The translations under genes and the position numbers were made by a program. From Ianthella basta (taxonomy: Eukaryota > Porifera > Demospongiae > Verongiida > Ianthellidae), in assembly GCA_964019415.1 (NCBI GenBank), contig OZ025879.1:6539368-6603367 (forward strand): a stretch of 64,000 nucleotides of DNA, given 5' to 3'. Below the pieces are notes generated by a model. The model saw only the letters and a list, made by a program, of their open reading frames with translations. It was not told the DNA's origin and ran no database searches. Positions 6,967 to 64,000 of this stretch are shown in pieces (positions within the stretch are counted from its first letter, which is position 1; each line of letters starts with the position of its first letter).

Positions 6967-9900
6967 ATGGCGTCAAAGGATTTGGGCTCATCAGCATCAA
7001 CAGGAACCGACACAGGTTTGTTGGTTGTACAAAGGTAGCTAGCTATAGCTAACGCACTGAACCAGCCACTGAATTGGTGCAGATATCTAGCTAGCTAGAC
7101 AGGTACCTGATTCTAGCTATTTATGCATCTCGCTCAGATGAACTGGAACGTGGTTCCGAAGATCTTGGGGAATCTACGTGCACGTGGGGAAGTACGCAAG
7201 CAGTTGAGCAGCCAGAGCAAGAGTCCACTGCTAACGGAGAATCATCATCACGTTTCGAGTCCCCCACACGGCACCTGAATACCATGCCCTCTCCACTTCA
7301 GCCGCTGCCACATGATTCTCAAGCGGACCCGTACAAACACATACACAGACCGCAGCAACAACCGTTTTCCCCTCCACCGGCCACTGATCGCGACCAGTCG
7401 CCAGAAGTTGTAAACATGACCAATGTCACTATGTACTTCGGCGAAGCTAGAAATTGCCCTATCAATATTCTTCGCCCACGGTTGCAGCCAGGCGCCAGTG
7501 CCCCGGGAGCACAACGTGATTTCAGTGTTACACGAGTGTCAAGATTCAGTTCAGAGTTCGGTAGCATCATATCAAGAATCAAGGCAGCAATCAGGGATGA
7601 AGGGAAAGAAGATGACGTTCTGGACAGCGCTGCTGCATTGACAGGGATTAGACCCAGGGATAGGGTGTTTCCTCAAGCTGGCGAAGCTCAATCAATTGGG
7701 CATTTTTTCCGGCTGGGCAGTCAATATGAATGGTGGAATTGGCTAGATTTTGATAGGCTCTCCCTACTTCTAGATGTGTGCGAGTGCGCTAGGGCCCAAG
7801 AGATACTCAGAAATTATGCTGAATGCCTGTCTGCTCATGTCCATGATAGGCTAGCAGCACTGAATGCAAATCCACCACGAAGTCACCAGCACTGGCTCGA
7901 AATGAAATGCGACTGCGATCATTATAATATCACCATAGAAGTCATCAAGGAGCACAAGCAGTTCTTGATGAATCGCCTTCGGGTACCGCGAGAAGCCTTC
8001 ACCTTTTGCGATTACTATGAGGGGTGTGTCACCACCATATGGGTAGTTCACTCCCCAGTCCAAGCTGAAGCTATCAAGCAGCGCATCCTCACTTTTGATG
8101 GAGCTAAAACGCAGAAGACTGAGCATGGCTCCCTCGTCTCAGCACCCTGTGCATGTGACCTAACCTCAGGTGAGCCTGTCACCAAATTTGTATTTTGAAA
8201 TTGTCTGTACATGGCCATTGGTATTATATGTAGGTCTGTTTTCTAAATGCATGTGGGACTGGAATCATTTTTTCACATAATTCTCATATTGTGTTGACTC
8301 TTTAGTATCATATTGGCAATTTTCCCTGCCTTGTATTCACATCCGGGTTTATTGAGGCATATCTGAGTGCAGTATGTGTGTATTGGGAATTTGCTGCATG
8401 TAGTCCTGTTTGACCTGGTGAGGAATGACTCCCTGAACGTGAAAGGATGCACACCTGAAGACCTGTCTGTGAAGTCAAAGCAAGGGGAAACCCTGCTTAT
8501 GGCTGCAGTGAGAAGGAACAATTCTACCCTGGTTAAGGAGCTTTTGGAAAAAGGTCCTCCACAGGATATTAAAGACTTCAAAGACACTGAGGTATAATTG
8601 TTTTGTCTGTGAAGTCCTCTTGCATTGCAACTTGCCACTTTGGTCATGTTTCCACATAGTTGGAACAAACTGCAGTAACCTTTGCTGCCTGTCAAAATTA
8701 TTGCAAGTGCCTACAAGTACTTCTCAGGTAAACCCCATCTTCTAATGGAACTAAGGGTGAATAATTATGTATGATACATAGGACCATAATAACCAAACTG
8801 TTTGGTCTTTCTCCATTCCTGTGTCGTGCACAGCTACGGTTGCCATCCAGCTATTCCAGATGTTGCTGGAAAGGTACCGCTGTTCTATGCCTGTGCAAAT
8901 GACTGTGCTTCCTGTGTGAATCAGATAACACGCTATGACTCTGGACTCAAAGTGAGTTGATGCATACCATAAGGATGGCCATCAAGTGAGCACAAGTCAG
9001 TGTATGCATGATTTCTATTCATCACGTGCACAGCACCTACAGTGGACTGTCAAATTTCTCTCTGCTGTTTGTGTCTCGGGCAAAGTTATTCAAGCCATTG
9101 ATTTGGCAAAGAAGCGGTGAGGACAACCAACACAATCGAGCTCCTGTAGGTGGCTTGCTTAATAGTGCTTGCCACAGATCTGTCACTCTGTTACACCAGG
9201 ATACTCATGGTTGCATAATATTATAAGAAGAGGTGTAACATTAATTCAAATGAGGACAGTTTGTAGCAGTTGGTCCACTGCTGAGGTTTGATTGACAGAG
9301 ATTAATCACTGGGAATATTACACCAACCAGCCTCCTACACCAATGGTGTCTCAGGAGGCTGGGGGGCATCACGCCCTATTAATGGCAACCAGTGATCACA
9401 GCCTTCCCCCGCTAGTCATCCTACAAAGATGGTAGAGCCACAGACAGCTGTTTCGCCCTAGTTGGGGCTCATCAGTGTGGCGTACTGAAGGATGGTAGGA
9501 TGACTACTCTTGTGTCCACCACTAGTGAAACACTTGTGGTTTCGACAAGAGCGAATACTAATGGGGGAAGGCTGCAAGTCATTTACAAAAGCGTGACTTG
9601 GCGCAAGGTTGTTAAGAGGACAGTTTGTAGCAGTTGGTCCACTGCTGAGGTTTGATTGACAGAGATTAATCACTGGGAATATTACACCAACCAATTAATT
9701 CAAATGATTGTATCCCACCACTCTGGTATATCTCATTGCAGAAGGCAACAAAGGATTGTTGTTCCAGCTTTGTTTGAAGCTGCCACATCAGGGAACTTTG
9801 CACATGCTGCTGAGGTTCTGGAGGAAGGAGATGACCTAGATGCTAAGGTGATCTGTTTAATTAGTACACCGTTCAATTCATCATTGTACATTTGTCATGT

Positions 9901-18011: not shown

Positions 18012-18039
18012 CTAGCTTCATACAGTGCAATACATTACT

Positions 18040-19339: not shown

Positions 19340-19368
19340 TGTGTGTGTGTGTGTGTGTGTGTGTGTGC
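19340..19368. repeat. (GT)n in BMS1 copy-1 intron 2
   Basis: Short GT run just after the exon-2 donor, followed by GCGCGC and ATGCATGCATG. Confidence 0.8.
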
Positions 19369-22951: not shown

Positions 22952-25900
22952 ATGGCGCTACAAGATTCGGGCTTGGCGAGCACACCATCAAGCGATCATA
23001 ACCGTTAGTTAGTTACACACGTGTCTAGAACGCCTGTTTTAGCAGAACAGACAATATAAAATTAATAATTAAAGCTTAGCCTAGTCAATCGCTTGCTAGC
23101 CAAGTAGGGAAGACACGTAAGTTTGACCTGTATGGAGTTTTAATTTCTTGTTTCTTGCTCCCGCCAGCCTTTGCTTCGAGCGGCAGTCAGAGGGAACATA
23201 TGGAGGATGGCGATTCCTCGCCGTACCCTTCACAGGAATCCAGGAACGGCAGTGGGAATAGCTATGTGGTTGTGCCGCAGTCTTCGCCGCGGACGACCAG
23301 GCGCTCGCGGAGTGACTGTGCCACGGCAAGAAGTGACCTGCCGGCGCCCCCCCTACAGCCAGTTGAGGTTCCTGCGATGATACCAAGAAATGAGGCCAAT
23401 TCTGCACCGATTGGTAGTGCAGAGCCAGAAAGCCAACTTCCTTGCACCACCCCTAATGGTGCGACTACTTTGCAGTACGTACAGTTTAATGTCGGGGAGG
23501 TTCGAAACTCTCCTATCACTATCGCTGGCAAGGTGGTTGGCAGCGACGTCAATCAGGGTACGCAGGGCCTTGTACCGACCGATGGCCAAGTAGCGGAGTT
23601 CAGCATTGAATTTGGGAAAGTCACACACGCGATCATCGAAAAGGTGAAAGAAGAGAAAACGGAAAAGCTTCTACTGAGCATTGCCGCTGAGATGACTGGC
23701 CCTGATCCTGATGATTCGATCTTCCCTGGTGCAGCAGAAGCCAATACAATTGAGGATTTCTTTCAGCTAGGAAGGAAGAAAAAGTGGTGGCACTGGCTTG
23801 ATTTTGAAAGGCTAATTCTTATTTTAGAAAAGACCAAGTGCCGGCGTGCTGTGGAAATAGTCCAGCAGTACATGAAGATGCTGTCTGATCATGTGACTGA
23901 TAGACTGTCGGTGCTAGATAAAACCCACCCCCGTGATGAAGGGCACTGGATGGAGATGAAATGCCAGTGTGATCTTGCCAACCTTACGCTGAAAGCCATC
24001 AAGAAGCACAAACAGTTCCTAGTTAATCGTCTCGGGGTACCTCCCCTGGGCTTCACATTTTTTGAGGCCTACGAGGGATGCATGGTGACAGTGTGGAGGA
24101 TTCACTCTGAGGTGCAGGCTGTGGAGGTCAGGAATAAGCTCATGTCAATAGAAGGATGCTGCAAGTTTGAAGAGCCTGACAGAGAAATAGTCAAGGCCAC
24201 CCTTTTCACTCCATTCCCTGGTGAGATGTTGCAGTACAGTCGGTCATCACTGTGCATGCAACACTGTGAAATGTAGCAAAGGCAATGTCGATGACACATG
24301 ACCAGAAGCTGTATGTCTGCGGTGGACTACTGAAATTGTGGTATTTGGCAGATTTTGCTATGACTTTTGGGCAAGCCTATGCCATATAATGATAAATTGC
24401 TATATGTTAACAATTTAATGGGTGGAAATATTTCATGGCGAATTGTTCTCAAACCGCCAATCCACCAAAATGTAGTCCCCACCTAAATCTGATATATACA
24501 TCTGCTTGTATAATAATTATGCAGATTTGTTTGCTGACGTTAAGCAAGGCACCCTGGACGTAGACTCACTCACAGAGGCACATTTGTGTGCAGTGAATGA
24601 CTCTTTGCACACTCTTCTCTCACTGGCTGTGAAGTGTAACAGGCCCGGAATTGTGAAGAAGCTGCTTGAGAAAGGCCTCTCTCAGAAAGTCAAAGACTTC
24701 AAGGCTACTGAGGTATAGTGCTTTTGTAGATCATGATGGTGTTTCTTTCTGATATTGCTTTAGCTATTCTCTGGTTCATCTGTTTGTTCTATTAGCTCAA
24801 CACATCCATATCTGTTTCACTGCATGTTGGTTTAAGCATCCTTCCAAACATTACGAGTATTATAAAAACTGCTATTTTTACATTTAATTTACTGCAGTAT
24901 GCAATAAACTTACTTCTCTCCCTTTCAGATGAAGCAGACAGCTATTAACATTGCTGCTCACAAAGACTTCTGTGGTTGCCTGAAAGCTCTTGTCCTGTAA
25001 GTTTGTTTTGTGTTGGTCCACAATTCTTTCTTACATCGCCCAAACCACCATTGGCAGAGAAGAATGGAGGTGTACTGGGGTGATGTCAGACTATGCAGGA
25101 CTTTGCATAGGGCTTGTACAAGTGTTTATATAGAGTGCTCTATATGCAAACCATATGACGCAAAAGATTTTATTGAGGGCCATAATTTTAACAGATGGAT
25201 CTTTGATTGCAAGAGTTCCCTCACTTTCTAAATTAGTCAAAGGTACCCTCAAATATTCCTATATGAAGTGTAGCAATTCAGTCTTCCTCTCATACCAATA
25301 CTAGTTTGCACGGCACACATTAAGGTGAATGACAATAATCTACTATCCGCCTAGCCACTCGTGCCATTACTAACACAACCTCAAATTAAGCAAGAAACAG
25401 CAGTAACTACCATAAATCTTCTAAAAATTTGAAAATCTGATTTTTGCAATCTCTCCTCAGTCTTGACTTGAAATACCATGTATCCTCTAATTTTTTGTCC
25501 TTCCAATTTTTCGTCATCTGTATGAAAAGTGTGGTTTTCTTCTAATTCTCTGACAAAATTCGCCGTATTCTAATTCCACGTCATTCTTCCAATTCACCAT
25601 CATTATAATAGTATTCTATTGTGACGTCACCTTCTTTGTCCTTTGTTTGAAGCTTTAATCGCCTTCTTTGTCCCCTGTTCAATTCATAGCTTAAGCCGTT
25701 CACGATGGACAAAGAGTTGCGCCGTTATGGGTTGCGTTCGCCTCGTCTACCTGATAGCCCTCCTGCTGTCCATACAGGTACCTTACTGCGGCATAACTCA
25801 CTGATGTGCCTTTCAAAAGTGACTTCGCCAACACTATTAGAGGGTACCATGTCACGTTCAGCTAGCTGACCAATTTACGTACTTCTAAATGACGTTGCTT

Positions 25901-35612: not shown

Positions 35613-36971
35613 ACTAAGAATGAATAATTTCATCTCACTCAGATGATCTGTCACTCTGTTACTCCAGGATACTCATGGTTGCATATAAGAGGAGGTATGA
35701 CATTAATTCAAATGATGGTATCCCACCACTCTGGTATATCTTATTGCAGAAGGCAACAAAGGATTGTTGCTCCAGCTTTATTTGAAGCTGCCACATCAGG
35801 GAACTTTGCACATGCTGCTGAGGTTCTGGAGGAAGGAGATGACCTAGATGTTAAGGTGATCTGTTTAATTGGTACACAGTTGTACTTGTTCATTTGGTAT
35901 AGGCTCATTGCTGCGTAAAAGGCTACTGAAGGTAGTTTTTATCACTCGAAACTACCTTCATTAGTTGTTAATCATTGTACATTTGTCATGTTATTGTACC
36001 TGTTTGCAATGTGTTCCTGGTGTACTCTTTGTGTAGGATGAGAATGGAGCAGGGCCTGCATATGTGGCCGCTTGCCACAGCCATCTGGAATTCCTGAAGG
36101 AGTGGGAAATGGCGAGTCCTTTCAGGATCCATGCAAATCATCCAGATTGCATGCAAGCTAAAATAATTGTTATTCAAAATGAGGATAGTATGTGTCCAAC
36201 AGATGTATCATAAACCAAAGGCCCAGGGTTTGATTATTATTGTTCCCAGTACCTGTACCTTTCTTTTGCTACTTCGAAGGTTTACGGACAGTAATGGCCT
36301 ATAGATTGTGTCTTAGACTCATGCAGCCACCACTGGTCTTCAGCACACCCACTGGACCCCTAGCTGTGATTCTGTCTGGTCATAATCACTTCTCACCACC
36401 CATGTACAGTTCACAGCAACCCACAACTATGTATCATAAAATTTACTATTTGTGTGTGAGTGAGAAAAGGGTTGAGGCCAGAGGTGCTAACAAGACAATT
36501 TGTTTTGTGATTCAGCCATGATATGTACACAATAAATTCAGTGGTGTTTCCAATGGACCATGCGCTGTTTTACAGTGTGTGCCGCTTGAAACACCACTAG
36601 ATGCTGAGGGATTATGAATAACCACCTGCATGAGAAGTAACCTCACTCCAACTGTGCAATGAATATGATTGGCTTGAACTGACAAATGCTTACGTCAGTT
36701 GTTATACGTAGCTTTTTACCAGATTATCGTTGTGTTGGATTCATTCTGTAGCATGTTAACAAAGTTGTATGCTTCACCAAAGACAGAAGCACCATTTTGC
36801 ATGGAGCTGTTTTGAGTGGTGCAACGAATGTGGTGGAGTACGTCTTACAATGCATGGCTGATGAGAAAGCACGAGATACTAGTGCAAGAGGACCACCAGG
36901 ATCAGCCCCCTGGGACGTGAATGCTAGAAATCACAAAGGAGAATCTGCACTGGAGCTAGCAGCTGTGAAAG

Positions 36972-39313
<2,342 letters not shown>

Positions 39314-42011
39314 GTCACAATGACGTGATTGACCTTATGGTCAGTCATGGTGCCAGCCCATGTGTCCCCTCCTCCAGTGGCTGTCTTGTGTCCTCTCAGT
39401 TTGAAGGCGTGGAACACAATCTGGATGTCATCCGGAAAGGGCATGTGCTGAAGTAAGTACATCCTTGACTCTTTTCATTAGAGCCTCAGACACTCTGTGG
39501 CCCACGATTGTGTAGTATAATATATATGCGGAAATATGGCATTAATGGTTTGTCCTGTATAAATTAATTGTTCTGTTTCACGGAATGATTTGACCATGCA
39601 CTCAAATTCTCATGGGACTAAACTTTCGAGGATGGCTATCAATCCATGAAATCCACAAAAATTTACTGCTATGAGTATTCAGGTCCATACAGTTTTTGCT
39701 GCCATATGGAATGCAGATTGTTCTGTTTATTGCAGATTGAAAACCGCAATCAAGAAGAAGCACACACTGGCAGAGTTTTGCAAATCTTGGCAGGTTTGTG
39801 GCAATCATTTTGCTTAACATGTGGATGTGTTTATCTAATTATGTGTTGTAGTCAAAGCAACAATTCGAAAGACACCTCAAGCCCATGTGTAGCCGAGCTA
39901 CTGTACAATGCCATATCATGTAGCCTCAAGACACTTGATCAGTATGCAGTGTGTACACTGTAGCTACATGTATATAACTCCACATTAAATTCTCATGAAT
40001 TAGTTACACAGAATCTCACCTACTTTAGAAATGGTTTTTCTTAAGTCATGTTAGTTTTTATACCAGTTGATGAAGATCTACAGATCAAAATGTCCTGGAC
40101 ATAGATTGATTGTTTGTGATCTCCAGTGGCTGCGATATTGCTCAAAAACTGCCTTCAGTCCTCTACACATGCCACCAACCAGTTATTTGTTGATCTACTT
40201 GAAACACTTTGTAATTTCAGCTACTACTGCTACGTACATTAGCTGCATGGTGCATAACTTGGCATTGTGCGTAAGCTCACAACCAAGAGCAGGGCACTAC
40301 TGCTAGTATATTTAAGTGGCTAACCTTAGTCTATCATCGACAACTGCTATATAGCAGGCACTGTATAATTATTATATCTTTTGCTTAAATTAAGTAGCAA
40401 TTGATTCCTTATACACAAAGTCATCTACGCATTTAACAATGCATTGTTCCCTAGGACCCCTATGACCACAATCTGACAACCTCTAGTGGATACAACATGC
40501 TTATGGTAGCAGCTGAGTACGGCAGACACGATGTTCTACAGTATCTCTTAGACTCCTTGAATCAGATTCCTGGCGGTAGCAGCCAGGTCCTGACAAAGCT
40601 GCAGACACTGACTGTTGAAGGATATAGTCAAGCAAGTGCATTGCAGCCAAGTAGTGAAGATGTGGGATACACTGTAGGAGTGGATTCTGCAAGTATGTGA
40701 AGAGGCATCACTGTCTGTAATATTTCATGGCCATGTATGTATTATACCAATCCAGAGTAAGTTGTTTTGTTCATTTGTAGGTAAGGCAACGCACACATCA
40801 AAGTCTGAGGGACTTATGAAGCGATTTCCATGGTCACCTGCAGCTGATAGTGGAATCTGTGACTCTGGTAACTGTGCATAGTACAATCATGTTATGTGTT
40901 CTGACACCCTAGTATATGCTACTCATTTCTTTCTACAAAATGTAGATGCACCTGCAGTGGTGACAAGTAACAAGCCATCTCCTTCCTTGATGATGTACTT
41001 GCACAGTAAGGCTCATGTTGATGGAAGCACAGCAGCACACCGAGCAGCAGTAACCAATATGTGAGCTAGGTATTTTATTGAATTATGTGCTGGTGTGTAT
41101 ATGAATAATTTTTGTATTATTTGACGTATGGTATGCAGGTTGATTGCTGATTTTTTTTCCCGAGGGTGCTTATATCAGCTGACATGAAGCTGAGGCTTAT
41201 AAATAGCCTGGGTGCGATATTTTGACAATCAAAACCAATTCTACCATACGTTAGACATTGTATGTTACCATAATTATGCTTACAATGTTTTCGGAACTTC
41301 TTTTGAGTTTAATTTGTAAGTTAGTGTGGACATTCCCAAAAGTATACACTTCAATGTACAGTAGAGTAACTCATCACACATTCTCCTCTCCCCCTTAAAA
41401 CTTTCCTCAAAGACATCTGACACAAGGTTACAAGTATATTCCTTTATTAATCATACAGGCATCGCAACCTTGCTACGCTCTTGGACATATGTCCCTCACT
41501 AGCCAATGCCCAGGATTCATCTGGCAACACCCCACTGCATTTGGCTATTCTGTGGAACAATAAAGCCTGCATCAAGGTCCTAATGGTATGTACAAACATT
41601 AAGTACATATGTAAGACATTACTTCACTTAGAGTTGCAATGAACCCTGCACATGCACTTTACTTTGTCAGGAGCCCAGCAGAAAGACCAACTTTGCACTT
41701 AGAAACCATAATGATGATTATCCCGACCAAGTGTTGCAAGTTCCAGGCAGATTGAAAACAAAGGTATGTACACGACATGCAGTAATAAATAGTAATATTA
41801 GAATACATTGCAAAAGAACAGCCTAGCACATGAGGCACTTGAAAAGTATTGATTGATATTGTATTCTAGCTTGCTCCTGATAAATTTGTTTCTTTCTCCT
41901 GTATCCATGAATTGCTCTCTTCTTTAATGCATTAAAGATGTTGCAACTAAGAGAGAAGCGTGTGCAGCAGACGGCAGTGCAGTCTACAGATTAGTGAGAT
42001 CCAGTTACACC

Positions 42012-45317: not shown

Positions 45318-45378
<61 letters not shown>

Positions 45379-45556
45379 GTGTGTGTGTGTGTGTGTATGT
45401 GGTGTGTGTGTGTGGTGTGTGTGTGTGTGGTGTGTGTGTGCATGAGGTGTGTGTGTGGTGTGTGTGTGCATGAGGTGTGTGTGTGGTGTGTGTGTGCGTG
45501 TGGTGTGTGTGTGTGTGTGTGCATGTGTATGTGTGTGTGTGTGTGTGTGTGTGCAT

Positions 45557-45640
<84 letters not shown>
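45318..45640. repeat. Complex (TG)n array with higher-order repeats
   Basis: Pure TG runs at both ends enclose tandem units of the type GTGTGGTGTGTGTGTGCATGAG and TGTGCATGTGTATG. It is a minisatellite grown out of a microsatellite. Confidence 0.85.
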
Positions 45641-45644
<4 letters not shown>

Positions 45645-45927
45645 AAGTTACTGAGGTATTGTGACGCGATGTCATGTTTACCTATTGTGAGTGACAGAGC
45701 AGCGACCGAAGGGAGCAAGTATTTCGAGTTGGGGCGGCAGCCCCACGAGTTTTTAACTCGAAATACTTGTTACCCTATCTTTTTAACTTTACCTAATGTG
45801 GCCTAGCCTGGTTTCATGTCATAGTATGTGTGGCACACTTCTGCTTTCGTTGACTGCACGGTGTGACTCTCTGTCAGCGTGATTGCAGCTGTGCAGTGGC
45901 TGGTAATTTTGGAGGAGCCCTGGCTTT

Positions 45928-48441: not shown

Positions 48442-51400
48442 ATGGCAGCACTCTCGCCCAAGATCACCTTTCTCTGTTGTGCAGTAGCACTAGCCATAGT
48501 TGTTGTGGAGAGGTCAGTCGGCGGAGATCAGATCGTTCAGTGCGCGGATACAAAATTGAGAGGTATAGTTACAACAGCTAGCAGTTTCACGTTCTAATGA
48601 GCTCACTAATGATAGCATACGGTATCTTTGATGACAGTTAGCTGATACGTAGGTCGTTGTTTTGGGACAAATAGTAGTTGTTTAAAGCAGGCTCTGAGTC
48701 AGGTGGCAGACTAAGACTTAGTTTTTGCCTTGCATGTCAATTAATGTAGCCCATCGGATAATGCTATTTGGCCTGTCACTGGAAAATTGGTCCTGAAAAT
48801 GGTCCTAGGACCAAGTATTGGTCCACGGACCAGAATTATCTGAAAAATTGGTCCTAACCTGAAAATTTTGGTCCCACTAAGTAGGAGTGTATATAAACTA
48901 ATATGACACAATTCTTGTATTAGCTAGCTATGTGTATACATAATATTATTTTAGGACAATTGCAAGGTAGACTACAACAGCACAGCATCAAATTTTATCA
49001 GCCTAAACTGGCCCACTCAGGACCACGTTTGGCAGCCAAATATAGTCATAGCTATTTGTCTACATGGTTAGCTACTACACAGAACTTCAAAGTACAGGCT
49101 TTCTCGTCTGTCTAAAGTTACAATCCGCTGCTGGCGATAGTCCCGTCGTAAACGAACACCTCGACAAATTCAATACTTAACAGCAATAAATTTGCTCACA
49201 TCCTAGTGCTATCCCTTGCTGGCTTCTTCTGCTGCTCAGGAAGGAGAGTCTAGCCATTGTGAAGAACGAACTCGGCATCATTCACTCGAGCAGATTGGCC
49301 TCTTACCGTGTTCCGCACGTGCTGGGAAAATCCTACACTAGATCGCCTGCTTTTCTGCTTCCCGGATAACTTTGATTAACTCTATCTTGTTCTTCAATAC
49401 TTTAGAGACGATTTGTTCGCAACCGAGCTGGTAGTGCTGGTATATCACTTCGGATTAGCTTTCGCTCCGACCAATTTTTTCGTGACACTTCTTGTTAGCA
49501 CCTCTCGCGCGGTCGTCAAGGGGTCTGATCTAGCTCCTCGATCTTTGGCTATCCGCACCCACTAAACAAGCTAACATGACTACACGCATTGCTGCTGAGG
49601 CAGACCTCAAGCTCAGCACTACTGATACCGTAGTACTTTTAGACGTTAGAGCGTTTAAAGATCGCTACCACCCCACTACGATCGCTGCACAAGCCGTTTA
49701 AAGGCTCGTTTTTGCAAGACAGACCAATATTCGAATCTCGGATCAGCATTTTCAGTGAAAATGGCCAGCTATGGGCCATTTCCCCTGGAATATTGGTCCC
49801 TAGGACCAATTTTTTGCCGGACCAAAATTTCCGTGCAAGTTCCTCAGCTGAACTGGCAGTCAGTGAGGGCAGGATCCCTATCTAAAGCCTTTATATAGAT
49901 CAGAACTATATACGCAAAGACCTTCATTCAGGTATGTCCAAGTAAACCATGGTCTTACTGTGAAAATGATTTGTGCACCTCTTTATGCAGCCATCCACTT
50001 CAAGCTTCCTTTTCGCCTGGGCAAGCTGTATAATTATGTCTCTTTCCTGTAACTATCAATGCCCAGTAAGCCAACCTAGGCCTATTTCATACATATACAG
50101 GACACTAGGCCTGCACCTTGCCATACATCGAGCTGTATTGCATGGTTACAGCCCACAGTACAAGCCAATCAGATTACAGATATGCTACATACTATGTCAC
50201 TAACCAAGTCATGTCAACCAGTGAGTTACCAATCAGCCATGCAGCAAGCATGCATGTAAACGCGTTCCCAAGCAATCATTGCTGATGTGCAGTAGCATTG
50301 GTTCTCTCTATAATATAATTGGTATGTGATGTCATAGCACATCTGTAATTTGGTTAGGTTAAACTATGGACTGCAACTTGCGCAACTCACTGTATTGCAA
50401 TGCACCAGGCCAATTCCCCATTACATATAATTGGACTATGCGTGATGTGAGGCTATAAGCCAACTTTGGTTGAGCAACCTCGGACTCACTCCCATCTGCC
50501 GTCACTTCTGTGGCACTGTTAAGTGCCCCTCCATTGACACCGGACAATGAATTGAATGTTAGTGATGGATGCCTCAGATATTTCCTGTCCTGCCAGTTTT
50601 GCTACAGTATGTATTAATATTTGCAGGAGACAGATTACTTGCCCCACAACCATTGTGAAAGAAAGATAACGTTCAGACCTACACATGGTAAGGAAAGAAA
50701 GGGGGATCGAAGGGAAAAATGGCAGTGAACCGGCCCAGCACTGGCAACCTCCAGATCTTTAGTCGACCCTTTAGCAGCCGGGTCACTGGTCACCGCCAAC
50801 AGCCTCTGATCCATTGTTAATTAGCATTTTCGAGTGTCACTGATTAGTCAGTGCCCGGTGTGGGAGTTTCAAAGGAGGCTCTGGATAGAGCCCGCCCACA
50901 TTGGTATATAAGGAAGGAATGGATCAGTGGCGCTAAAGGGTCGGCTAAAGATCTGGAGGTTGCCGGTGCTGGTCCTGTTCACTGCCATTTTCCCCTTCCC
51001 CCCTTCTTTCCTTACCATGTGTAGTTCCGAACGTTATCCTTCATTCGTGTCACCATGGTACATAGACCATCTTAAATAACCATTGTGAAAGCTATCATAT
51101 TTGCACATGCATGCAGTGTTATATGACTTGCGTGGGTGAGTGTGAATGTTCAGTACAGAATGTGTCATATAAAATATGCACGAAGGGGGCATTTTGTGTG
51201 ACCTGCTGGGCCCAGTATTTGCGGCTGTTGTGAAATTGCTCTATTCTCACAATTGCTATTCCAGTCCAAGGTCATTGTGGTACCTCCAATGCAAGCGTGT
51301 GTCAGGCAGTGGAGAACTTCACTCTAACTTTGACATGCTCTCCATGTGGTGACCAGGACACAGTGCAGTGGACCTTCAGCAGTTCATCTGAGGAGGATTT

Positions 51401-54400
51401 CAAGTGTCTTCCTGAGCAGAACAAGACTCTGGTGATTGCTGCAATCAACGTGGCAAACGAGAAAGCCTCAGGGTGCTACGTGTGTGAATGTGGCAACAGT
51501 GAACATATCTTCACCGTACAAGTGGGCCTTCCAGGTGAGCACTGGAATCTTATGTACAGCATGTACAAGGAATGTATGTATGAACTTTCCTGAGGAATTA
51601 AAGTGCACTCACAGCAGAGGAGGAATTGGCACTCACAGCCCAAACGGCATGTGCTTAGAATCATACGGGAACCGTTTACTCAACCATTGATTTCATGACC
51701 CAACACTCACTGCTCCAGCCATATGTATGTGCATTACATGTATAGCTCCATACTTGCTTCTAGGTGAATGCATGGCATTGTGGGGTGAGCCAGAGCAAGC
51801 ATGTTACTGGCTGGCTCGAGGCTTACGAGTATGTACCTAACAGCCATCAATGCTGTGACCCTGGTCCCTGTTCACCAGTTCCTTCGGGTTCCTGAGATAC
51901 AGTTGCCCTCTATGTAGAACTTAAGATACACAGATGCTTCTCTTGCAATGCTGCCTGACTCTACCTGTTGACCTCAAGCATAGGTGGCACTTTAGAGCAG
52001 AACTTTCTCTGGCTCACTGCAATATAGTGGCACCCTGCTGTTTTCTTATGAGTTGGACAGGCACTAAGACCTGCAGTTGGCTGATATAGTTTTGCTACCA
52101 CTAACCACATTCCCCCTCTCCCCTCCTCCCAGTGCCTCCCACATTTCTGGTAAGGACAGTGGAAGATGGCAGCTCCACCCACTTTAACCTCCACCCTGTG
52201 ATACGTCGTGTTCCTCTGAATGAGACCACCCCTGGTGTTGTCTGCATCAACTGCTCTGCCACGGGCTACCCTGAACTTCACTACTGGTGGTACTATTATG
52301 ATGGCAGTGAAGATTACTATAATGCGTCCAGTGACCCCTGCCTCTCGTTTTATGACGACCAACCCGAGGTAGGGGGTACAACTACTTCTACTGGTATATA
52401 TACGTGTTTCTTTTGTGGGTACTGTGTGAATGGGATATTTCATCTGCTTACACTCCTGAATCACTCACTTGCACACTGTGTGTGGATTGTAGTAGCAGTT
52501 GTCACACAGCTTGGTAGATTTGTGTGATGTGTTGAACATGCTAGCTCTTAGGCAGATGATGATTTATATGCTGGCATTTGTAGGCAAACTAAGAGTGTTA
52601 TACATACTGATAGGATGGAGAATGCTCTTCCAACCTTAACTGGAGGAGGTAACTGGTTATATATATATTCTTCATATAGGATGTCCTGACTCCAACAGTA
52701 TATTTATATAATACCATGCATGCTGAAGTGAAAGTACATTTAATTATTCAGTCATGCATTCTGGTTCAGTAACACTTATTTAAAGCAGATCAAACTTTCT
52801 GTGATGCCTCCTTAAATACGTACCCAGCCGGGGCACTGATACAGTACTTACTATGTCTATGTGCATGGGATTCTTTACTGCATCATTTGCGGAAATGTGT
52901 TATGAGTGACAATTTTGGGTAGCACATTTTTATTACTAGAAATAATACAAATTTTCTACAAAAATAGTAAGGATGTAGGAATGGCATAAAAAGGACAGAA
53001 ACAAGTAAAGGCTGTTACACAGTGGAGCATTAACCATGGTCCCTACATGCAAGAATGTTACACCTTATAGTCCTACATCCTTGAATGTAGGGACGATGGT
53101 TAATGCTCCACTGTGTAACAGCCTTTACTTGTTTCTGTCCTAACCCAGCGAGGAACGGCGACCGGAAGCCAACCGTGGCTGGGAAATGCACGCACGACCG
53201 CGAAAGTCCTTCAAACGGCACGCAAGCTAACTGCTGCAGCTGCTAACAATGGCACCAGTCACTCCGGTTTCATTCGGTTTAATTACGTAATTTGAAAATG
53301 GCGTCCGTCCCGCTTGGCCAAGCAACACAGCAGGAGTCGTGGCAAGCGCCGTCTTCCGCACTAACTCGCGCCGCCTTCTAACCTACAAAGGAATGCAGCC
53401 AGCCAAAAATGTTGCAATATGGTGTGTGAAGTATTCTCCTGGTCCCTCTGGTTTGTGCACTACGGCTGTCGAAGAAGAAGAAGACGAAACGTGGGAAATG
53501 TCGAGGGTGCTATCTACGTATAGGCGCACCTTCGCTGTGAAGTAAGGTTATATATGTCCACTGTTTAGTCCCCGCTTCGTCATGGTAAGCTTCGTTCGCC
53601 GGTTTTCGGTCCTGTTCAGGAGTAGCGCGACTTTTCGTTTGTATTACAGCATACAAACAACCACTGCCATCCCTACATAGACAGCACTACCGTGCTGTCT
53701 GATTATGTAGTCTCTTGGCCTTATGTATCTATAAAATGGTGAATGCGTGTTATTGTTTTCTCACACAGGCTTAATGTGTAGCACTGATGTGATACAAGTG
53801 TATGTGTACATATGTGCTATAGACTTCTGCCTGCCTGAAAGAGGCCCACGTGTCAGGATTTCCCCAGTATCTTGTTCCCCCCTCTATCCACACAGGTGCT
53901 GTGCTTCACACCCACCATTCACAACGTTGAGCAACAGCGAATGTACTATTGTCAAGTGTCCAACATTGTGCAAACAGTGACTGCTCAACAATACATTACA
54001 TATCCAGGTCAGTGGCATATCCAATACTCTCTTTTAAGATAAGGAGTTTGATGTCCAGAGCAAAATGATGCCAATCAATTTTGGAGCACTGGTACTTCTA
54101 GTTTGACTTTGGGTATTGTATATGTGCTCCTTGTTCATAAGCATGTTTGGCATGTGCCTAGAAATGTTGCTGTTGTATGGGCATATGATGGCTACAGGTA
54201 TGGGGCATCTACAGCTAGTTATTCATACATACAGGTGTGGGAGATATTATGTACGGGTAGCTATGCATGGAGCATGACAAGGGTACAGGCCACGGCTATG
54301 TACTGTATGTATGAGCAAGTTGGAATAATTATTAGTACATAAATTGTGTGTGCATACATTCTCACCAAAACGATTTCTAAAGGTTAATTCTAGTCCTAAT

Positions 54401-57400
54401 AATAAACCTTCTTCTAAGACTCTTGAGTGAGTTACAACTCCAGATACCTGGTATCTGAATTCATTGACCAGTTTATACCCATTCACAGAGACGTCATGAG
54501 TTAGCTAGCATGTGGCCTCTCCATTTCTAATATCAGCTACACATGAGGGAGACGAACTGAGAGTGTCTTGAGTTTGGACACATCCAGCCACCTCATGAGT
54601 TTGTACTACCTCAGAATTCTTGTTATAGCATTTTCATAATACTGTAGAAATGTTTCCCCATTACACCTTGTTCTAAATGCAGGGTCGGCAGAAATGTCTG
54701 AATGGTTTATGAGACCCCATCAATTGCAGAGTCGAGGGGAAATTCCTCTCATTGGTGGCAGTGCCACTGCAGTCTGTGCGGCCTACCCACAGATTGACCT
54801 GCAAGTGGAATACTACGTCTGTGCAGTGCCGAACATGGCAGACACTGACAAGTCGGCCTGTCTCTTTGACAGTCTCACTTGCTGCAGTTGCAGTTGTCTT
54901 GACAACTCATGCCACCATAAGCTTGGCATCAATGTCACTACTAACACATTCTCTGACTCTCTGGGCATACCCACTGATGGGTGCAAAGTGGATTCTGCTA
55001 CTGAAGGCGATTTTGTGTGTGTCGTAGAGAAAAATATATCTGCAGATGGTACTGCCTCAGCTAAGCAGTTTATTGGCAATTTCTCCTTTGTATTGCCGCA
55101 AAGGATGAACACTGCATCACTCACACCTTGGGAAGATAGGGATGTTGTTGCAACTATTACTGCAAGTCCTATTATTATCACCATCGGTATTGTGCTGTGC
55201 GTAAGACACTATAGAAGATGCAAGAGGGATACTGTGAGAATGGGCAGTAAAAGGGAAGCCAATGATGGCAATGAGGAAGACAAAAGAGAAGGTTAAGCAA
55301 ACCCACACTACACACAAATTACAGTTATTGCTAAACTTGCATGCATGTTAGAAGATGCATGCAATACTACAATTTGCAGTGTGATGTAAAAGTGATTCCA
55401 TACCATCCAAGTTGATCACATGCAGTTACAAATTCGGATTTGCTGTTCTGTAAGTTAATCTCTTTGTGATACCTTCAAGATTTTCACTGCCACATGCATT
55501 CAATTGTAGCAGTCTGCAACACTGTGGACTGCTCTTTCCAGTCAGTGAAGGTCATCACTGAACTGGGGGGAAGAGAAGAAATTGTTGCCCAGTGGAAGTT
55601 AAGAAGTGATGGAAAGTTAGAGCTACCTGGATTCTTGCCAGGGGCCACCTACTTGGTAGTGTATACTTCTGATAAGGAACGTGTGAAGATTCCCATTGCA
55701 GTAGCCACTGGTGAGTCAGTAGTACCGCTATACCCACCAGGGCACATTTATATAGTTTCTTGGAGTAAATGCATGCATGAATATGCAGGGATGTCTTTAG
55801 GCCATTTGTGTTCCGAACCTGTCTTGAGAATGCAGCATGGACCCTTTAAAAAATTCTCATGAATCCCTCAGCATCAAATAGTATTACTTATGTATGCATA
55901 CTTATTGTTTATACTGTATGGCTGGAAATTTGGTGGGGAGTTTTTGCGATTGGCAGTTTTGCCAATATTTCTTCCACCAAAATTTGTCGGCATTATTGTT
56001 CAGTCATAGTTTCCCGTATAAACTAGGCTTGTAGCTGGATGCATTTGGCCTATAGGTTAATTATTGGCATGAAGCTCACAATTGACAGCTGCACACAAGG
56101 ACACTTTTCCAAAAGGTTTTGTACACCAGAGGTAGGATAGCTGTCTAGACTAGCGCGAGGAAGCCAAAAGCAATCGGAATTGCTTTGTGTGAGGACTGAT
56201 GTTAATATTATTGTCAGTAATTTACTGTGGAAGATTTTGGCAATCTGTTCTCTGTTTCTGCAATGGAGTGGTACAATTATATGCAAAGTCACAGTTAGCA
56301 AGGAAGCATCAGCAGATCTACCAAGCTAGAGAAGACTTGGATTCTCATTTGCACATTGAAGAATTTGTGGACAAAGCTAAGAATTGGAATATCGTCAAAC
56401 AACAGCATGTGTACTCCACAGCCACATTTCATCATCAGTGCAATCTATTTCTTGTCCATTCCCAATTAGCTATATTGTGATGAATATCATTATGGCACGA
56501 GGCTTACCCAACCGCCAAAGTAAATTTCGCCAAATACAATAATATCATTAATCCATCAAAATAAAGTCCCACCAAAATCTCCTGCCACAAGATAGTAGTA
56601 AATATAGTGCTTTTACCAAACCTGAACAAATGGCAATCCCTGTTTGATTTCAATGTGTTAATCACAATTTGAACAACATGCAAACTGTGTGAGTGTAATG
56701 TGTGCATACCTTGCTAAATTATGTGCATGCACTTGCCTGAATATTTGCCTGTAAGAACCTAACTTGACTTCCTTTCAACTTGACTTGACTTTCTTGTATT
56801 GCAGACTCTGACATTGATGAACGTTTGCGTAGCATCAACCAAGCCCTTGTTAAGGGAATCGACATAAATCCCAAAGTGCTGGCTGACATGTTTGCAGAAG
56901 GGGTGGTGAACAGACACCAGAATGGGCAGATACATGCCAGGCATGAGAGACATGAGCCACGTGATGTGATTGCTGCCTACTTTGCTAACAGTGTAGTCAA
57001 CAACTGGCCTGATGATATATTTGAGCAGCAGATAATGAATCTAGTGTCAGTGTTGAGGGCCTCTGATGATGATACAGCCAATCTCAGTGTGGCAGACAAG
57101 CTGTTCAAAGCTATGCATCCTGAAACCTCTGCAGGTGTGACTCATGATTAAACTGGATGTAAAAATGTATGTATACGCCTAGTTCTTATATTGTGTTGAC
57201 TCATTAGTATCATATTGATAAACTTCCCTGCCTTGTATTCACATCCGGGTTCATTTAGGCATATCTGAGTGCAGTATGTGTGTATTGAAAACTCATACTT
57301 GTAGTGCTGTTTGACCTGGTGAAGAATGGCTCTCTGGATGTGACAGGATACACACCTGAAGACCTGTCTGTGAAGTCAAAGCAAGGGAAGACGCTAGTAA

Positions 57401-60400
57401 TGGCTGCAGTGACAAGGAACAACTCAACCCTGGTTAAGGAGCTTTTGGAAAAAGGTCTCCCACCGGATATTAAAGACTTCAAAGACACTGAGGTATATTA
57501 GCTTTATCCATGAAGTCCTCTTGCATTGCAACTTGCCACTTTGGTCATGTTTCCATATAGTCAGAACAAACTGCAGTTACCTTTGCTGCCTGTCGAAATT
57601 ATTGCAAGTGCCTACAAGTACTTCTCAGGTAAACCCCATCTTCTAATGGAACTAAGGGTGAACATGTATGATGTATAAGACGATGATAACCAAACTGTTC
57701 AGTCTTACTCCATTCCTGTGTCGTCCCCAGCTACGGTTGCCATCCAGCTATTCCAGATGTTACTGGAAGGTTACCGCTGCTCTATGCTTGTGCAAATGAC
57801 TGTGCTGACTGTGTGAATCAGATAACACGCTATGACTCTGGGCTCAAAGTGAGTTGATGCATATCATAAGGATGCCCATCAAGTGAGCATGAATCAGTGT
57901 GTGTTTTATATATTCTTCACATGGCGCATAGCACCTACAGTGGACTATCAAATTTCTCTCTGCTGTTTGTGTCTCGGGCAAAGTTATTCAAGCCATTGAC
58001 TTGGCAAAGAAGCGGTGAGGACAACCAACACAATCGAGCTCCTGTACATGGCTTGCTTAATAGTGTTTGCCACAGATCTGTCACTCTGTTACTCCAGGGT
58101 ACTCATGGTTGCATATAAGAGGAGGTATGACATTAATTCAAATGATTGTATTCCATGCACCACTCTGGTGTATCTCATTACAGAAGGCAACAAAGGATTG
58201 TTGCTCCAGCTTTGTTTGAAGCTGCCACATCAGGGAACTTTGCACATGCTGCTGAGGTTCTGGAGGAAGGAGATGACCTAGATGCTAAGGTGATCTGTTT
58301 AATTAGTACACAGTTCAGCTCATCATCGTACATTTGTCATGTCCTGGTATACTCTTTGTGTAGGATGAAAATGGAGCAGGGCCAGCATATGTGGCTGCTT
58401 GCCATGGCCATCTGGGATTCCTGAAGGAGTGGGAAGTGGTGAGTCCTTTCAGGGTCCATGCAAATTGTTCCAATGGCGAACTGAAATAATTGCTAATCAA
58501 AATGAGGATAGTATAATATGTCCGACAGATGTATTATAAGCCATAGGCCCATGCATGCAGGGTTCAATTAGTATTATTCCTAGGACTGTACCTTTCTTTT
58601 GCTATTTTGAAGGTTTACAGACAGTAATGGATCAGATTGTGTCTTAGGACTCATGCAGTCACCACTGGTCTTCAACACAACCATCGAACCCCTAGCTGTG
58701 ATTCCAGTCATAATTCACTTCTCACCAGCCATTGTACAGTATGCAGCAACCCACAGCTAGTCTTGCGTAGCCGACCGCTTTTCCCCCCATTATTAATTAA
58801 TGACATATTCGGTCAATGACATCAACATATAAAAATGGAGGTAGGAATACCTGTCAGCTATGCAAGACTAACCCACAACTACGTATCATATATTTTTTAC
58901 CATTTGTGTGTGAGTGAGAGGAGGGTTGGGGCCAGAGGTGCTACCAAGATAATTTGTTATGTGATACGGTCAAGATACATATGTATACAGTAAATTCAGT
59001 GGTGTTTCCAATCCACCACTGATTGACCGCCATTTTACAGTGTGTGCCACTTGAAACACCACCAAATACTCGAGGGATGCGACTGGTTCGCACTGACAAA
59101 GGCTTGGGTCTGTTATAGCTTTTCACCAGTTTATCTTTTGTAATAGATTCATTCTTTCTGTAGTGTGGTAACAAGGTTGTATGCTTTACCAAAGACAGAA
59201 GCACCATTCTGCATGGAGCTGTATTGAGCGGTAAAACAAATGTGGTGGAGTACGTCTTACAGTGCATGGCGGATGAGAAAGCACGGGATACTAGTGCAAG
59301 AGGACCACCAGGATCAGCCCCCTGGGACGTGAACGCTAGAAATCACAAAGGAGAATCTGCACTGGAGCTAGCAGCTGTGAAAGGTACATATAATTTTATA
59401 CATAAGCTTGTATGGTGTATTCTATAGCTCACTATTTGAGAACATTCTAGTATTACTGTCCTCTATTATTTTCCTTGAAGGTCACAAGGACATGATTGAC
59501 CTTTTGGTCAGTCGTGGTGCCAGCCCGTGTGTCCCCTCCTCCAGTGGCCGTCTTGTGTCCTCTAAGTATCTAGGTGTCCAACACAATCTGAATGTCATCC
59601 GGAAAGAGCATGCACTGAAGTTAGTAAGTACAGCCTTGGCTGTTTTCATTGGAGCATCAGACACTCTGTAGCATACCGCATAATGGGAAATTTTTGCAGG
59701 AGAATATTTTTGCAAAATCCCAAAAATTGGCCCGAACTGTAATTTTGCAGAAATATTTTCGCATTTTAGTTGAGCAGATAAGCCGCTCCCCATGACAATG
59801 GCAGCTGACTATGCACGCTCATGGACTGCCCAGAACATAGCAAAACAAACGTATAGCAGAACTTACTCCCTTCTCCTCTGTCCTTTTACAAGTGCAAGGA
59901 CGTCTCATTGGGGTATTGCACTAACACTCTCCGTGTTCATTGAATTGGTTAGATAACCAAGCTAATTTACATGGAAACGTAAGACATACACATAGTATTT
60001 GAAGACATGCATAGTTCAGAATCACAGCATGATTTAGTTCATTTACAGGTGGCCCTCACTGACAATCACATCAATGGGGGTATCTGACAGGTCACATCTG
60101 GCTGGTCTGTGGAGGGCTGATCTTGCGCCTCTTAGATTAGTGGAGTCAATGAGTGAGAATCCAAGCTTGCAACAATCATCTTCATTGTCTCACTGTATCC
60201 ATGGGGATGAGTGCTTGACTGATCAATGAAGCCAATCTTTTGTAGAAGATTGCTGCAGAGGGACCCCGCCCACCAGTGGTAGATAGCACTAGGGGTGTGA
60301 AAGAGCCGTACTCAATCTTGATGATTTTCCTCTCATAATGCCTTCTCCTTACCTTCTCGTTCTGTCTGTATGACGATTGGATAGTCTTGTTGGCATAGGC

Positions 60401-63400
60401 TCATGTGAATGAGGTAAACACTCTTATGTCAACAAAGCACTTTGCCTACAGTTTCCCCAGAAACCTACGGCCTTCACATCTATAGTCTTGCATGGTCATC
60501 AACATTTGCGGTTCTGAGTTGGAACATTCCTTCAGAGAGGGGTTGTAGATGTGACTGTCTCCACACTCAATCGGGCATATCTCCGTGTGAGGAGCTGAGC
60601 AGTCAAGTCATGAATATGGTCCTGTCTAATTGTAGGAAACACTCCTTTGTAGCAGTTAATGGCATTGGAGGTGAAGAATGGAGCGCCACATCAGGCAATG
60701 ACTTGGAAGCCCTAGTGGGTCCCAGTCATACCATATGCAAAGGGCATCACGAAAAGCCTGCTTTTGTAGGGAGATCTGATAGAAAGTGTGGTGCTCTGCA
60801 GCCTTCTGGAGCTTAGGTGGCAAGCTAGGTGTTCTTCAGAGCTATGGCTTCCTCACATTGTCTTTCATGGTGGTGCTTCTTGGTCTCATGCTTCCGATGC
60901 TCCTGCATGCATATGGTTTGAGCAGATAAGAGTGATTTGCTGTTCTGCCCTGTGTAAAGAACGATGAGAGGTGAGATGACCATGCAAATCATGATGCTCT
61001 GTACTGTTCCGCAGCCTGCTCTGCAACTCTGGGTATTCCATGGCCTCCTTCCCTGACTGGAAGTGCAAAGAGTTGCCTTTCAGTGTCACTGATATTGCTG
61101 CGACCAGTCATGGCATGCAGATATCTAAGCCTTATAGTGCATCTTTGACAGGTTGCAGCTTGTCACACAGGTCAGGCATAGCACGAATCAGATAGTTCCA
61201 TTTGCACATAAAGCCATTAATCAGTGCAGAGTAGGCTGATTGAGGTTGGGATTGAGCAATTGTGACCAGCCAATCAATCTCTTCTGCCCATTGGTTGACC
61301 TTGATGGTGATGAATGTCTCTGAGAAAGAGTACTGAGGGGAACACCAAGGTAGGTCTTTGAATCTCTCGAATTGGTTATTAGCTACCAGTAGCTAGTCTC
61401 CTCTTCACCTGTATCACTGTAAACGATTACATTCTCCACTGCTTCATTGGCTGATGCAATAGTGGGGTATGGTACTACTGTTCAAGGTGAGATATCTGTC
61501 TTAGGTAGCACTGAATCAGCTCTCTCAAAGTAGCAACTTTGATATAACAGACTTTCTCGTAGCTATTCGTTTGCAGGGCGGCAGCACAAGCACAAGGCAC
61601 TGTGCCTTCTTAGCCAGCATACGTAGCTGCTGCCGAGTCCTAGTTAAGCCATTATTTTGTCTTAGTTTGCCACCAAACATATTAAAAACACAGGGTTAAT
61701 GGAAAATGTTCATGGAGAATATTTTCATGAATCAATCTATCTGTGAAATTCACGAAAAAGTTCTCCTGCAAATTTTCCCACTATATGGTAATTTATATGC
61801 TCTACAGTATTTGGCAGTACAGTGGTACTTGCCTAAGATTGTCACTGTGTTAGGCAGCCACCTCTCTAAAACAGCCAGCCTCCCTGGCTCCAAATATCAC
61901 TAACACATTACAATGTACCTCTGTAGAGCAGCCACCTCTCTATATGAAGTCAGTAGAACTGGCCCAAAGGTGGCTGTCTTAGACAGCTTTCAGTGTATAA
62001 CACTAACATTTGGTTCTGTATCCTTTCTATTTACGGGATGATTTGCCCGCTCTAAATTCTCAAGAGAATAAACTTTTGTGGATAAGGCTGTCAATCTGTA
62101 AAACCCATGAAAGTTTACTGCCACGAGTATTCAGGTCCATACGGTTTTGCTGCCACGGGATTCAGATTATTATGTTCTATTCATTGCAGATTGGAAACTG
62201 CAATCAAGGAGAAGCACACACTGGTAGAGTTTTGCAAATCCTGGCAGGTTTGTGGCAATCATTATGCTTAGCTTGTATGTGTGCATAACCAGTATGCCCA
62301 TCACAAAATTTAAAGGTAGGCCACTCCTGCTAGTGTAGACAAAATCTCAACAAGCAGTCTATTCAAGCATCTAACCTTGGCCTACCATCAACTTCCTCCA
62401 GCAGGGACTGTATAATTATGTTCTTTACTTCTTACACAAAGTCATCTATTTACAATGCATTGTCTTGTAGGACCCCTATGACCACAATCTGACAACCTCT
62501 AGTGGATACAACATGCTTATGGTGGCAGCTGAGTACGGCAGACACGATGTTCTACAGTATCTGTTAGACTCCTTGAATCAGATTCCTGGAGATGGCAGCC
62601 AGGTTCTGACAGAGCTGCAGGCTCCTGTAGGATGTGATCTAACAGATGCATGGCAACCATGTAGTACAGGTGAGGAATACTCTGAAGGAGTGAACTCTAC
62701 AGGTACACATGTGAAAATACACTTTACTGTCCGTGTTATTTCATGGCCATATATTGTGCTAGTCCTAACATTGCTATATGTTCACTAGCTGATTACCCAC
62801 CCTTCAGGTGAGTTCCAGCTTATCGTTCAAAAATTTGAGCCTTTAACCAGTCGAAACTGCATGTCTATTTAATTGGGAGCATTCTGTAGACTCTCTCCAT
62901 AGGCACAGAATTTCCTTGTGTTGATTTGTTTGTCTGAAGGAGTCCAGTGGCAAAGGCACTAACTGGCCTTAGATCACTCCCTCCAACTCCACCAACTCCA
63001 TAGGCACAGAGTTTCCTTATGTTGATTCATTTGTCTGAAGGAGTCCAGCGGCGAAGGCATTAGCCACTTTAGGTCACTCCTCGAATTGCTGTGGTGTAGC
63101 CTTACACTTTGCGTGTAGATTGGTGGAACATTTGAAGGAGGAATTCACATTCAACGAAACCACGATCTTTACCCTATCTCTTGGATATGGTGGTAACCTT
63201 AAAATATGCAAGAACTTAGACAGAACAACGTTTAACCCAAAAATCAGCTCAATCATTTTACTCTTGATATGCCTTTCCCTATTCCTATCACCATTGGTGG
63301 CCATCCATAAAAACCGAGGGAGAAACTCCTGACCATAATAATGTCATTTACGTCCATTACAATAAGATTTTACAGATAAGGCAACACACACATCAAAGTC

Positions 63401-63413
63401 TGTGGATTTATGA
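48442..63413 (+). CDS. ANK-D: Ig-domain transmembrane receptor with cytoplasmic ankyrin repeats
   Basis: Exons: 48442-48562 (signal peptide, MAALSPKITFLCCAVALAIV), 51265-51534 (Ig1), 52133-52368 plus 53896-54007 (Ig2), 54683-55291 (Ig3-like, TM, juxtamembrane), 55510-55710, 56805-57134, then ankyrin exons 57305-57492, 57561-57628, 57731-57848, 57941-58014, 58184-58289, 58364-58438, 59164-59383, 59481-59619, 62190-62247, 62471-62702, 63376-. Every junction is in phase. Ig marks: LTLTC...VQWTF...CYVCEC; INCSATGYPELHYWWYY...MYYCQVSN. Many N-glycosylation sites precede the TM helix (residues about 402-421). A 330-bp helical exon precedes the ankyrins. In the 63376 exon a one-base loss against ANK-A gives a stop at 63413 (1064 aa); otherwise the gene runs out of the window. 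The first exon is joined by phase and position only, so it is the least certain. Likely a surface recognition receptor. Confidence 0.7.
48785..49830. mobile_element. Insertion in ANK-D intron 1 with GGTCC-rich ends
   Basis: GAAAATTGGTCCTGAAAATGG and CTAGGACCAAGTATTGGTCC at the left are mirrored by TGGAATATTGGTCCCTAGGA and CCAATTTTTTGCCGGACCA at the right. It probably belongs to a 1-kb non-autonomous element. Boundaries approximate; no coding capacity seen. Confidence 0.4.
50660..51045. mobile_element. MITE with about 110-bp inverted repeats in ANK-D intron 1
   Basis: Left GATAACGTTCAGACCTACAC and right GTGTAGTTCCGAACGTTATC are inverted copies. Within the arms, AACCTCCAGATCTTTAG pairs with CTAAAGATCTGGAGGTT, and AATGGCAGTGAAC with GTTCACTGCCATT. 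The non-palindromic centre is about 130 bp. No ORF. Confidence 0.7.
52945..53705 (+). mobile_element. Composite palindrome-plus-body element in ANK-D Ig2 intron
   Basis: Palindrome (52945-53140, shorter right arm) directly followed by a body (53141-53705) with AATGGCGTCC, GAAGAAGAAGAAGACGAAAC, a TTCAGGAGTAGCGC block and the final CCATCCCTACATAGACAGCA plus hairpin. This copy shows most clearly that palindrome and body touch. It splits the two half-exons of the second Ig domain. Confidence 0.6.
58758..58870. mobile_element. 113-bp TAGTC...GACTA MITE in ANK-D intron
   Basis: Starts TAGTCTTGCGTAG, ends CTATGCAAGACTA. Flanked by ACCCACAGC (58749-58757) and ACCCACAAC (58871-58879), a 9-bp duplication with one change. 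The paralogous introns of ANK-A (about 10578) and ANK-C (about 36420) are empty sites. Ends match the elements at 304 and 42012. Confidence 0.75.
59684..61790 (-). mobile_element. Reverse-transcriptase element fossil in ANK-D intron
   Basis: A 2.5-kb ANK-D intron whose ANK-A and ANK-C counterparts are under 300 bp. On the minus strand, about 61000-61400 shows a stretch typical of the C-terminal part of reverse transcriptases of animal retroelements (AQSQPQSAYSALINGFMCKW, then LPARLGGLG-like context). The element is old and broken in several places. TGGGAAATTTTTGCAGGAGAA near 59686 and an inverted match near 61770 may be its edges or those of a host MITE. Family not resolved. Confidence 0.5.
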
Positions 63414-64000
63414 AGCTAGTTCTGTTGTCACCTCATAATGGATTCTGTGGCTCTGGTAACTGCATGTGCATAGTACAATCATGTTATATGCTCTGCAGTC
63501 AAGACACTCTAGTATACACTACTCATTCTTCCTGTGAACTGTAAAAGGTGCAACTGCAGGAGTGGCAAGGAACAGGTCATCTCCATCTTTGATGATGTAC
63601 TTACGCAGTAAGGCTCATGTTGATGGAAGCACAGCAGCACACCGAGCAGCAGTAACCAATATGTGAGCTATTTTTATGAATTATGTGTGCTGGTGTGTAT
63701 GATATATTATAATGCAGTTTGATTGTGGACATTTTATAGTGGCGGGTTTAGAGGGGGTCCAGGGGTGCAAAGGAACCCCCTTTTGCTAGTCCTATGTATG
63801 ATTTTGGGCAGTTTTTAGACCAGAAAGAGGCGTGGTGGCCATATATCAGGGGCACTGTGTGTGTACCTAACTACTTTAGAAACCCCCTTTCGGAAATCCT
63901 AGATCCGCCAATGTTTTAACCCAAGGGTATCCATATCAATTGCCATGTAGCTGAGGCTAATAAAGAGCCCAGGTGCAATGTTATGACAGTCAACCAACTC
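63414..64000 (+). other. ANK-D downstream exon relics
   Basis: A block at about 63569-63662 is homologous to ANK-A exon 16326-16452 (DGSTAAHRAAVTNM, donor GTGAGC). The old acceptor AG is lost, but a GCAG 18 bases into the ANK-A-equivalent exon keeps the same phase. Further exons would lie beyond the window. Confidence 0.5.
63737..63911. mobile_element. Short MITE at the right edge
   Basis: Ends TGGCGGGTTTAGAGGGGGTC and its weak inverse (GGAAATCCTAGATCCGCCA), about 175 bp, in the ANK-D region past the 63550-63663 exon-like block. ANK-A and ANK-C lack it at the homologous place (about 16530 and 41155). Class not resolved. Confidence 0.55.

Follow-up and report, generated by a model that had tools for sequence, protein, structure and literature searches.

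The locus and its exons

The DNA analysed here, referred to as the window, is a stretch of 64,000 nucleotides of the sponge Ianthella basta (contig OZ025879.1, here C12, positions 6539368-6603367), and it was compared with the genome assembly of 209 Mb in 96 contigs; coordinates given without a contig are those of the window. Exons were rebuilt by hand, and their borders and phases were then checked. The modelled exons E1-E17, all on the plus strand, are bounded by AG/GT, and they are more than chance open frames, since E1-E7 have relatives elsewhere in the genome and E8-E17 have relatives within the window. A first-pass annotation had joined these exons into one protein with a signal peptide, three Ig-like domains, one transmembrane (TM) helix, two cytoplasmic exons and an ankyrin array. 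Judged by the relatives of each part, two unrelated gene families adjoin in the window, an Ig-TM receptor and an ankyrin gene.

The receptor exons and their family

E1 (48442..48562) is a signal-peptide exon, with a possible upstream ATG at 48430 and relatives at C12:6361520, 6230406 and 6203127. By hydropathy only, the strong hydrophobic segments of the receptor are residues 4-22 (2.28) and 402-420 (2.35, the best 19-residue hydropathy window, in E5), and the next reaches 1.23; the signal-peptide-like exon and the single TM helix proposed earlier were thus both recovered. E2 (51265..51534) carries the first Ig-like domain (Pfam Ig_3, E 0.0031, below the cut-off), and its protein sequence is 87% identical to that at C12:6360057-6360323. 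E3 (52133..52368) and E4 (53896..54007), each with relatives in the receptor cluster described below, form the two halves of a second Ig-like domain and together match Ig_3 at E 8.5e-5, also below the cut-off, while the whole Ig part matches Pfam Ig at E 2.7e-6, again below the curated cut-off. E5 (54683..55291) encodes a Cys-rich membrane-proximal domain with invariant cysteines, followed by the TM helix. Of the three Ig domains claimed, then, two have weak matches, and the third, in E5, is unsupported because no Ig model was matched at E of 1 or below by any of nine E5 family members (nine of 12 stop-free family sequences were used, the 12 including the window copy). A PDB profile search with the E5 family likewise gave no match. 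The exon-2 family comparison used seven of nine sequences; sequences with stops or X were left out of the family sets.

The TM helix is followed by the two cytoplasmic exons of the first-pass annotation, both of which could be modelled with AG/GT borders and have relatives in the genome. E6 (55513..55710) has no Pfam match, and it is apparently the last exon in several genes of the cluster, where reading on from it soon meets a stop. E7 (56805..57134) looks weakly CARD-like from its profile scores, a resemblance absent from the first-pass annotation. Pfam CARD was matched by 2 of the 15 E7 family members (all 15 sequences kept were used), with a best E of 0.0017, below the cut-off; the window copy is not among the two, and one of them matches Mak10 almost equally well (E 0.0028). 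Alignment of the E7 family by hhalign with 20 CARDs from this genome gave a probability score of 83 and E 9.1e-6 over 37 columns, covering the first half of the domain only. In a PDB search with E7, the RAIDD CARD came tenth of 14 matches (E 1), below designed repeat proteins and a glycan-binding protein. The window E7 itself has no Pfam match, an NCBIfam scan of the E7 family returned no CARD, and a search for E7 relatives in viral contigs found none. The genome holds at least 147 CARD matches above the cut-off, among the best 150 of 367 candidates.

A protein search with E1-E5 gave 73 matches in the genome. Twenty E5-like places, some with internal stops, lie at C12:6188706-6405515, a cluster of about 220 kb, all on the minus strand. 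The nearest relative (C12:6346310-6361621, minus strand) has E1-E7 in the same order, with protein identities of 72-95% for E2-E7 and 44% for E1, and its DNA can be aligned through the greater part of introns 2, 4 and 5 and, in places, through the other introns. The window copy belongs to the C12 receptor family, with which it shares the order of its exons and a DNA similarity that crosses their borders. It appears to be an outlier of the cluster, which lies some 180-400 kb along the chromosome and on the other strand. Compared with its nearest relative, the receptor has an omega of 0.447 over 572 codons, with 0.97 for E2 and 0.81 for E6. The small contigs C32 (10,000 bases) and C89 (43,383 bases) also hold receptor relatives. 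A stretch at 44699-45771, upstream of E1, also occurs inside the locus of the nearest relative (C12:6358090-6358879) and at 6340003, and is perhaps tied to a rearrangement.

Tails seem to vary within the cluster. Several genes stop soon after E6, the nearest relative stops after one E7-like domain, and genes further removed have two. Among the paired exons listed, all six second ones reach a stop within 21 residues, whereas six of the seven first ones are open over all 45 residues examined, from which it follows that the family ends with an E7-like domain. Taken together, the predicted anatomy and the family support the receptor role that had been suggested for the Ig-TM part.

The tandem ankyrin array

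Four tandem copies of the ankyrin gene lie in the window, copy 1 at about 7.1-17 kb, copy 2 at about 23-31.6 kb, copy 3 at about 35.6-41.7 kb and copy 4 from 57.2 kb. E8-E17 are thus part of this tandem array, as its copy 4. Its first ankyrin exon, E8 (57305..57492), is 84% identical to copy 1 at 8406; E9-E14 (57561-57628, 57731-57848, 57941-58014, 58184-58289, 58364-58438 and 59164-59383) are placed by their paralogs and by Pfam, and Ank_2 is matched at E 1.3e-28 over E8-E15, so the ankyrin array of the first-pass annotation stands. E16 (62190-62247) and E17 (62471-62669) follow from paralogs and the phase model. A last exon ending at 63413, as drawn earlier, finds no support; homology with copies 1 and 3 instead gives E18 at 63560..63662 on the plus strand after E17, and another ankyrin exon, at 64507-64632, falls outside the window.

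The earlier annotation also described correct phase at all 16 junctions, and here E15 is the exception. It runs to 59619 (from 59481) with a weak donor, GAA/GTTAGT, and only this donor brings it into phase with E16; with the strong donor GTAAGT, four bases further on, it runs to 59623 and the frame shifts to a stop in E17. At this position copies 1 and 3 have a strong CTGAA/GTAAGT, and copy 4 is four bases longer. Intron 15 holds open frames on the minus strand at 60000-61400, which may be reverse transcriptase remains.

Copy 1 begins with a head exon (modelled at 7095..8169), whose donor CAG/GTGAGC at 8170 is of phase 1 and fits the next exon, and the open frame that holds the corresponding head exon of copy 2 (23080..24273) has 43% identity to it; both lie on the plus strand. 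For copy 3 (35645..41652, plus strand) the comparison turned up no head exon and no E8-E11. No head exon was found for copy 4, though copies 1 and 2 have one. A copy 4 head elsewhere upstream was considered and rejected, the matches being those of copies 1 and 2 and two distant places on contig C1. In the E8 frame, no ATG precedes the first repeat. The main domain of the copy 1 and 2 head exons, about 200 residues long, has no significant Pfam match, and it recurs, at about 30% identity, in open frames of great length on contig C1 (C1:8576687 and C1:8585182). At the other end of the gene, copies 1 (17443-17526) and 4 (64718-64768) have a hydrophobic stretch that might be a C-terminal membrane anchor. 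The tandem unit contains a second gene, at 18019-19367, 42848-44310 (where the match of the 42.8 kb copy ends) and from 64919, which presumably resembles a BMS1-type ribosome-biogenesis GTPase.

Codon changes indicate constraint in copies 3 and 4. Those specific to copy 4 over E12-E19 comprise 18 synonymous and 20 nonsynonymous (omega 0.335, binomial p 0.0009), and copy 4 compared with copy 1 over E8-E17 has an omega of 0.434. Headless copy 3 has 14 synonymous and 10 nonsynonymous changes (omega 0.21, p 0.0002), and copy 1, with its head, has 8.5 and 21.5 (omega 0.77, p 0.40).

A shared stop and a seam between the families

Reading through the end of E7 (57135..57151, plus strand) gives GVTHD and then TAA, with an ATTAAA at 57147; the nearest relative reads VGVTD and then TAA. 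The in-frame TAA at 57149-57151 and the ATTAAA are common to both, and over 57135-57171 the window copy and the nearest relative are identical at 32 of 34 aligned bases, with one 3-base gap. The match to receptor DNA ends at 57171 and that to ankyrin copy 1 begins at 57180, which places a seam between receptor-family and ankyrin-family DNA (57171..57180, without strand) inside intron 7 of the first-pass annotation. When 56950-57350 was used as a query, its positions 1-222 matched C12:6346272-6346490 (minus strand) and 231-400 matched C12:6547645-6547815 (plus strand). Only one of the five DNA matches to this query crosses the seam, namely the window itself, and no second instance of the seam was found in the genome. 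As read from this comparison, the window thus shows two families, a common stop, a seam and an absent head exon. The common stop and the ATTAAA predict a transcript that would end between 55291 and 57305.

One receptor or two units

The window probably holds a receptor of 630 residues, of the order Ig-Ig-TM-CARD-like and ending at 57151, followed by a headless ankyrin fragment. Two separate units are likelier than one protein because the stop lies just ahead of the seam. Under this reading, 48442-57151 would be a complete single-pass receptor gene with its TAA at 57149-57151, encoding in order a signal peptide, two Ig-like domains, the Cys-rich membrane-proximal domain, the TM helix, the short E6 and the CARD-like E7. 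A rearrangement would have set the 3' end of the receptor against intron 1 of one of the ankyrin genes of the tandem array, and the loss of the first exon of that gene would have left the headless fragment. The receptor mRNA would end near 57151. At the surface the Ig domains may bind a ligand or a like receptor, and clustering may bring the CARD-like tails together, so that CARD adaptors would be recruited. A minor read-through product, with E6 or E7 joined to E8, may also exist.

Some points count against the two-unit reading. The E7 donor is passable (CAG/GTGTGA, 7 of 9 consensus positions) and in phase with E8. The ankyrin exons of copy 4 are constrained, and the missing ATG in the E8 frame would be unusual in an independent gene. 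The CARD assignment, moreover, is weak, being limited to the first half of the domain and excluding the window copy.

A possible, though less probable, alternative is that a single chimeric receptor is made, Ig-Ig-TM-E6-(CARD-like E7)-ankyrin, in which E7, or E6 skipping E7, has been spliced to E8 since the rearrangement. Both the E6 to E8 and the E7 to E8 joins are in phase, and in read-through chimeras the final exon of the upstream gene is often left out, the splice running to the second exon of the downstream gene. If the weak E15 donor is used, an 18-exon model is open for 1074 residues up to E18, and within it the copy 4 ankyrin exons stay open and show constraint. With its head exon gone, copy 4 would need a new head to be expressed, and between E7 and E8 there is no AATAAA, only the ATTAAA at 57147. 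Against this, the in-frame stop and ATTAAA come right after E7 and are common to the relative, splicing from the strong E15 donor would cause a frameshift, and the seam has no second example in the genome. Correct phase at all junctions was rejected as proof of one protein, as the join of E7 to E8 alone bears on the question; that join is weak evidence, since phase 1 is common to the E8 acceptor and to the introns that follow E5, E6 and E7. Constraint was rejected as proof too. A similar constraint is seen in headless copy 3, for which no link to a receptor is known, so the constraint may predate the rearrangement and cannot separate a live fusion from a fragment that carries old constraint. 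Nor was the proposed order of domains found again in the family: no similar ankyrin exons were found downstream of the nearest relative among the matches listed, and none of the 115 ankyrin matches listed (best 121 of 760 candidates, in this genome) falls in the receptor cluster. With a common stop, different relatives and the seam, the comparison leans against the one-protein claim.

In a further form of the fusion, rather unlikely in our judgement, the protein would be a new-born chimera, in which an Ig-TM-CARD-like head has been placed on a beheaded ankyrin gene and is spliced across the seam, the stop-ended form being a second isoform. If a fusion were true, a single rearrangement would have given rise to a new receptor architecture, relatives of both parent genes can still be seen nearby, and an ankyrin scaffold would be placed under an Ig ectodomain. 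Searches of an open-access library of papers turned up no Ig-TM-ankyrin receptor, which does not prove its absence from print.

An assembly artefact at the seam, by which a receptor copy would have been wrongly joined to the ankyrin array, is improbable. Near copies stand in tandem in this region, the seam occurs only once, and the small contigs C32 and C89 carry receptor relatives, all of which would fit an artefact; yet the seam lies well inside a contig of 7.8 Mb, and assembly mis-joins usually sit in sequence common to both sides, which is not the case here because the flanking matches do not overlap (57171 and 57180). It is very improbable that the receptor transcript stops just after E5 (REG and then a stop), leaving a short-tailed receptor with E6 and E7 as alternative or separate exons, for although the E5 donor is poor (AAG/GTTAAG, 6 of 9 consensus positions) and an in-frame stop directly follows it in both the window copy and the nearest relative, E6 follows E5 in six other genes of the cluster, four with intact E6 matches and two with a stop or broken frame.

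Comparison with known receptor systems

The stop-ended receptor belongs to a cluster of about 220 kb with 20 E5-like places, whose genes seem to end in different ways, with E6, with a single CARD-like exon or with a pair of them. This layout is what would be expected of a system for self/non-self or microbe recognition, and the cluster is possibly a recognition complex. In sponges, receptors of this kind are poorly known. The Hydractinia Alr genes of the allorecognition complex form a tandem cluster of Ig-like TM receptor genes, and the window family resembles them in this, although the tails differ. The UNC5 netrin receptors combine an Ig ectodomain, a TM helix and a death-fold domain in the tail, and also have TSP1, ZU5 and UPA domains. 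The window receptor would share the Ig, TM and death-fold tail with UNC5, but a Pfam search of E1-E7 found no TSP1, ZU5 or UPA.

Closer counterparts come from sponges. In Dysidea avara, TR154561_c0_g1 is listed with Ig domains and a CARD, and it changed 1 h after microbial cues with a log fold change of 10.5 (PMC6208332); going by these listed domains, the predicted window receptor would be like it in combining Ig domains with a CARD-like one in a single sponge gene. Sponge Ig-TIR receptors have been described as well (PMC6208332; PMC12909245), and for D. avara 39 CARD genes are given, along with 14 TIR genes of which six have an Ig domain (PMC12909245). As far as these accounts go, the Ig-TIR receptors and the putative receptor of the window would both carry Ig domains outside the cell and an immune signalling domain inside it, TIR in the former and CARD-like in the latter.
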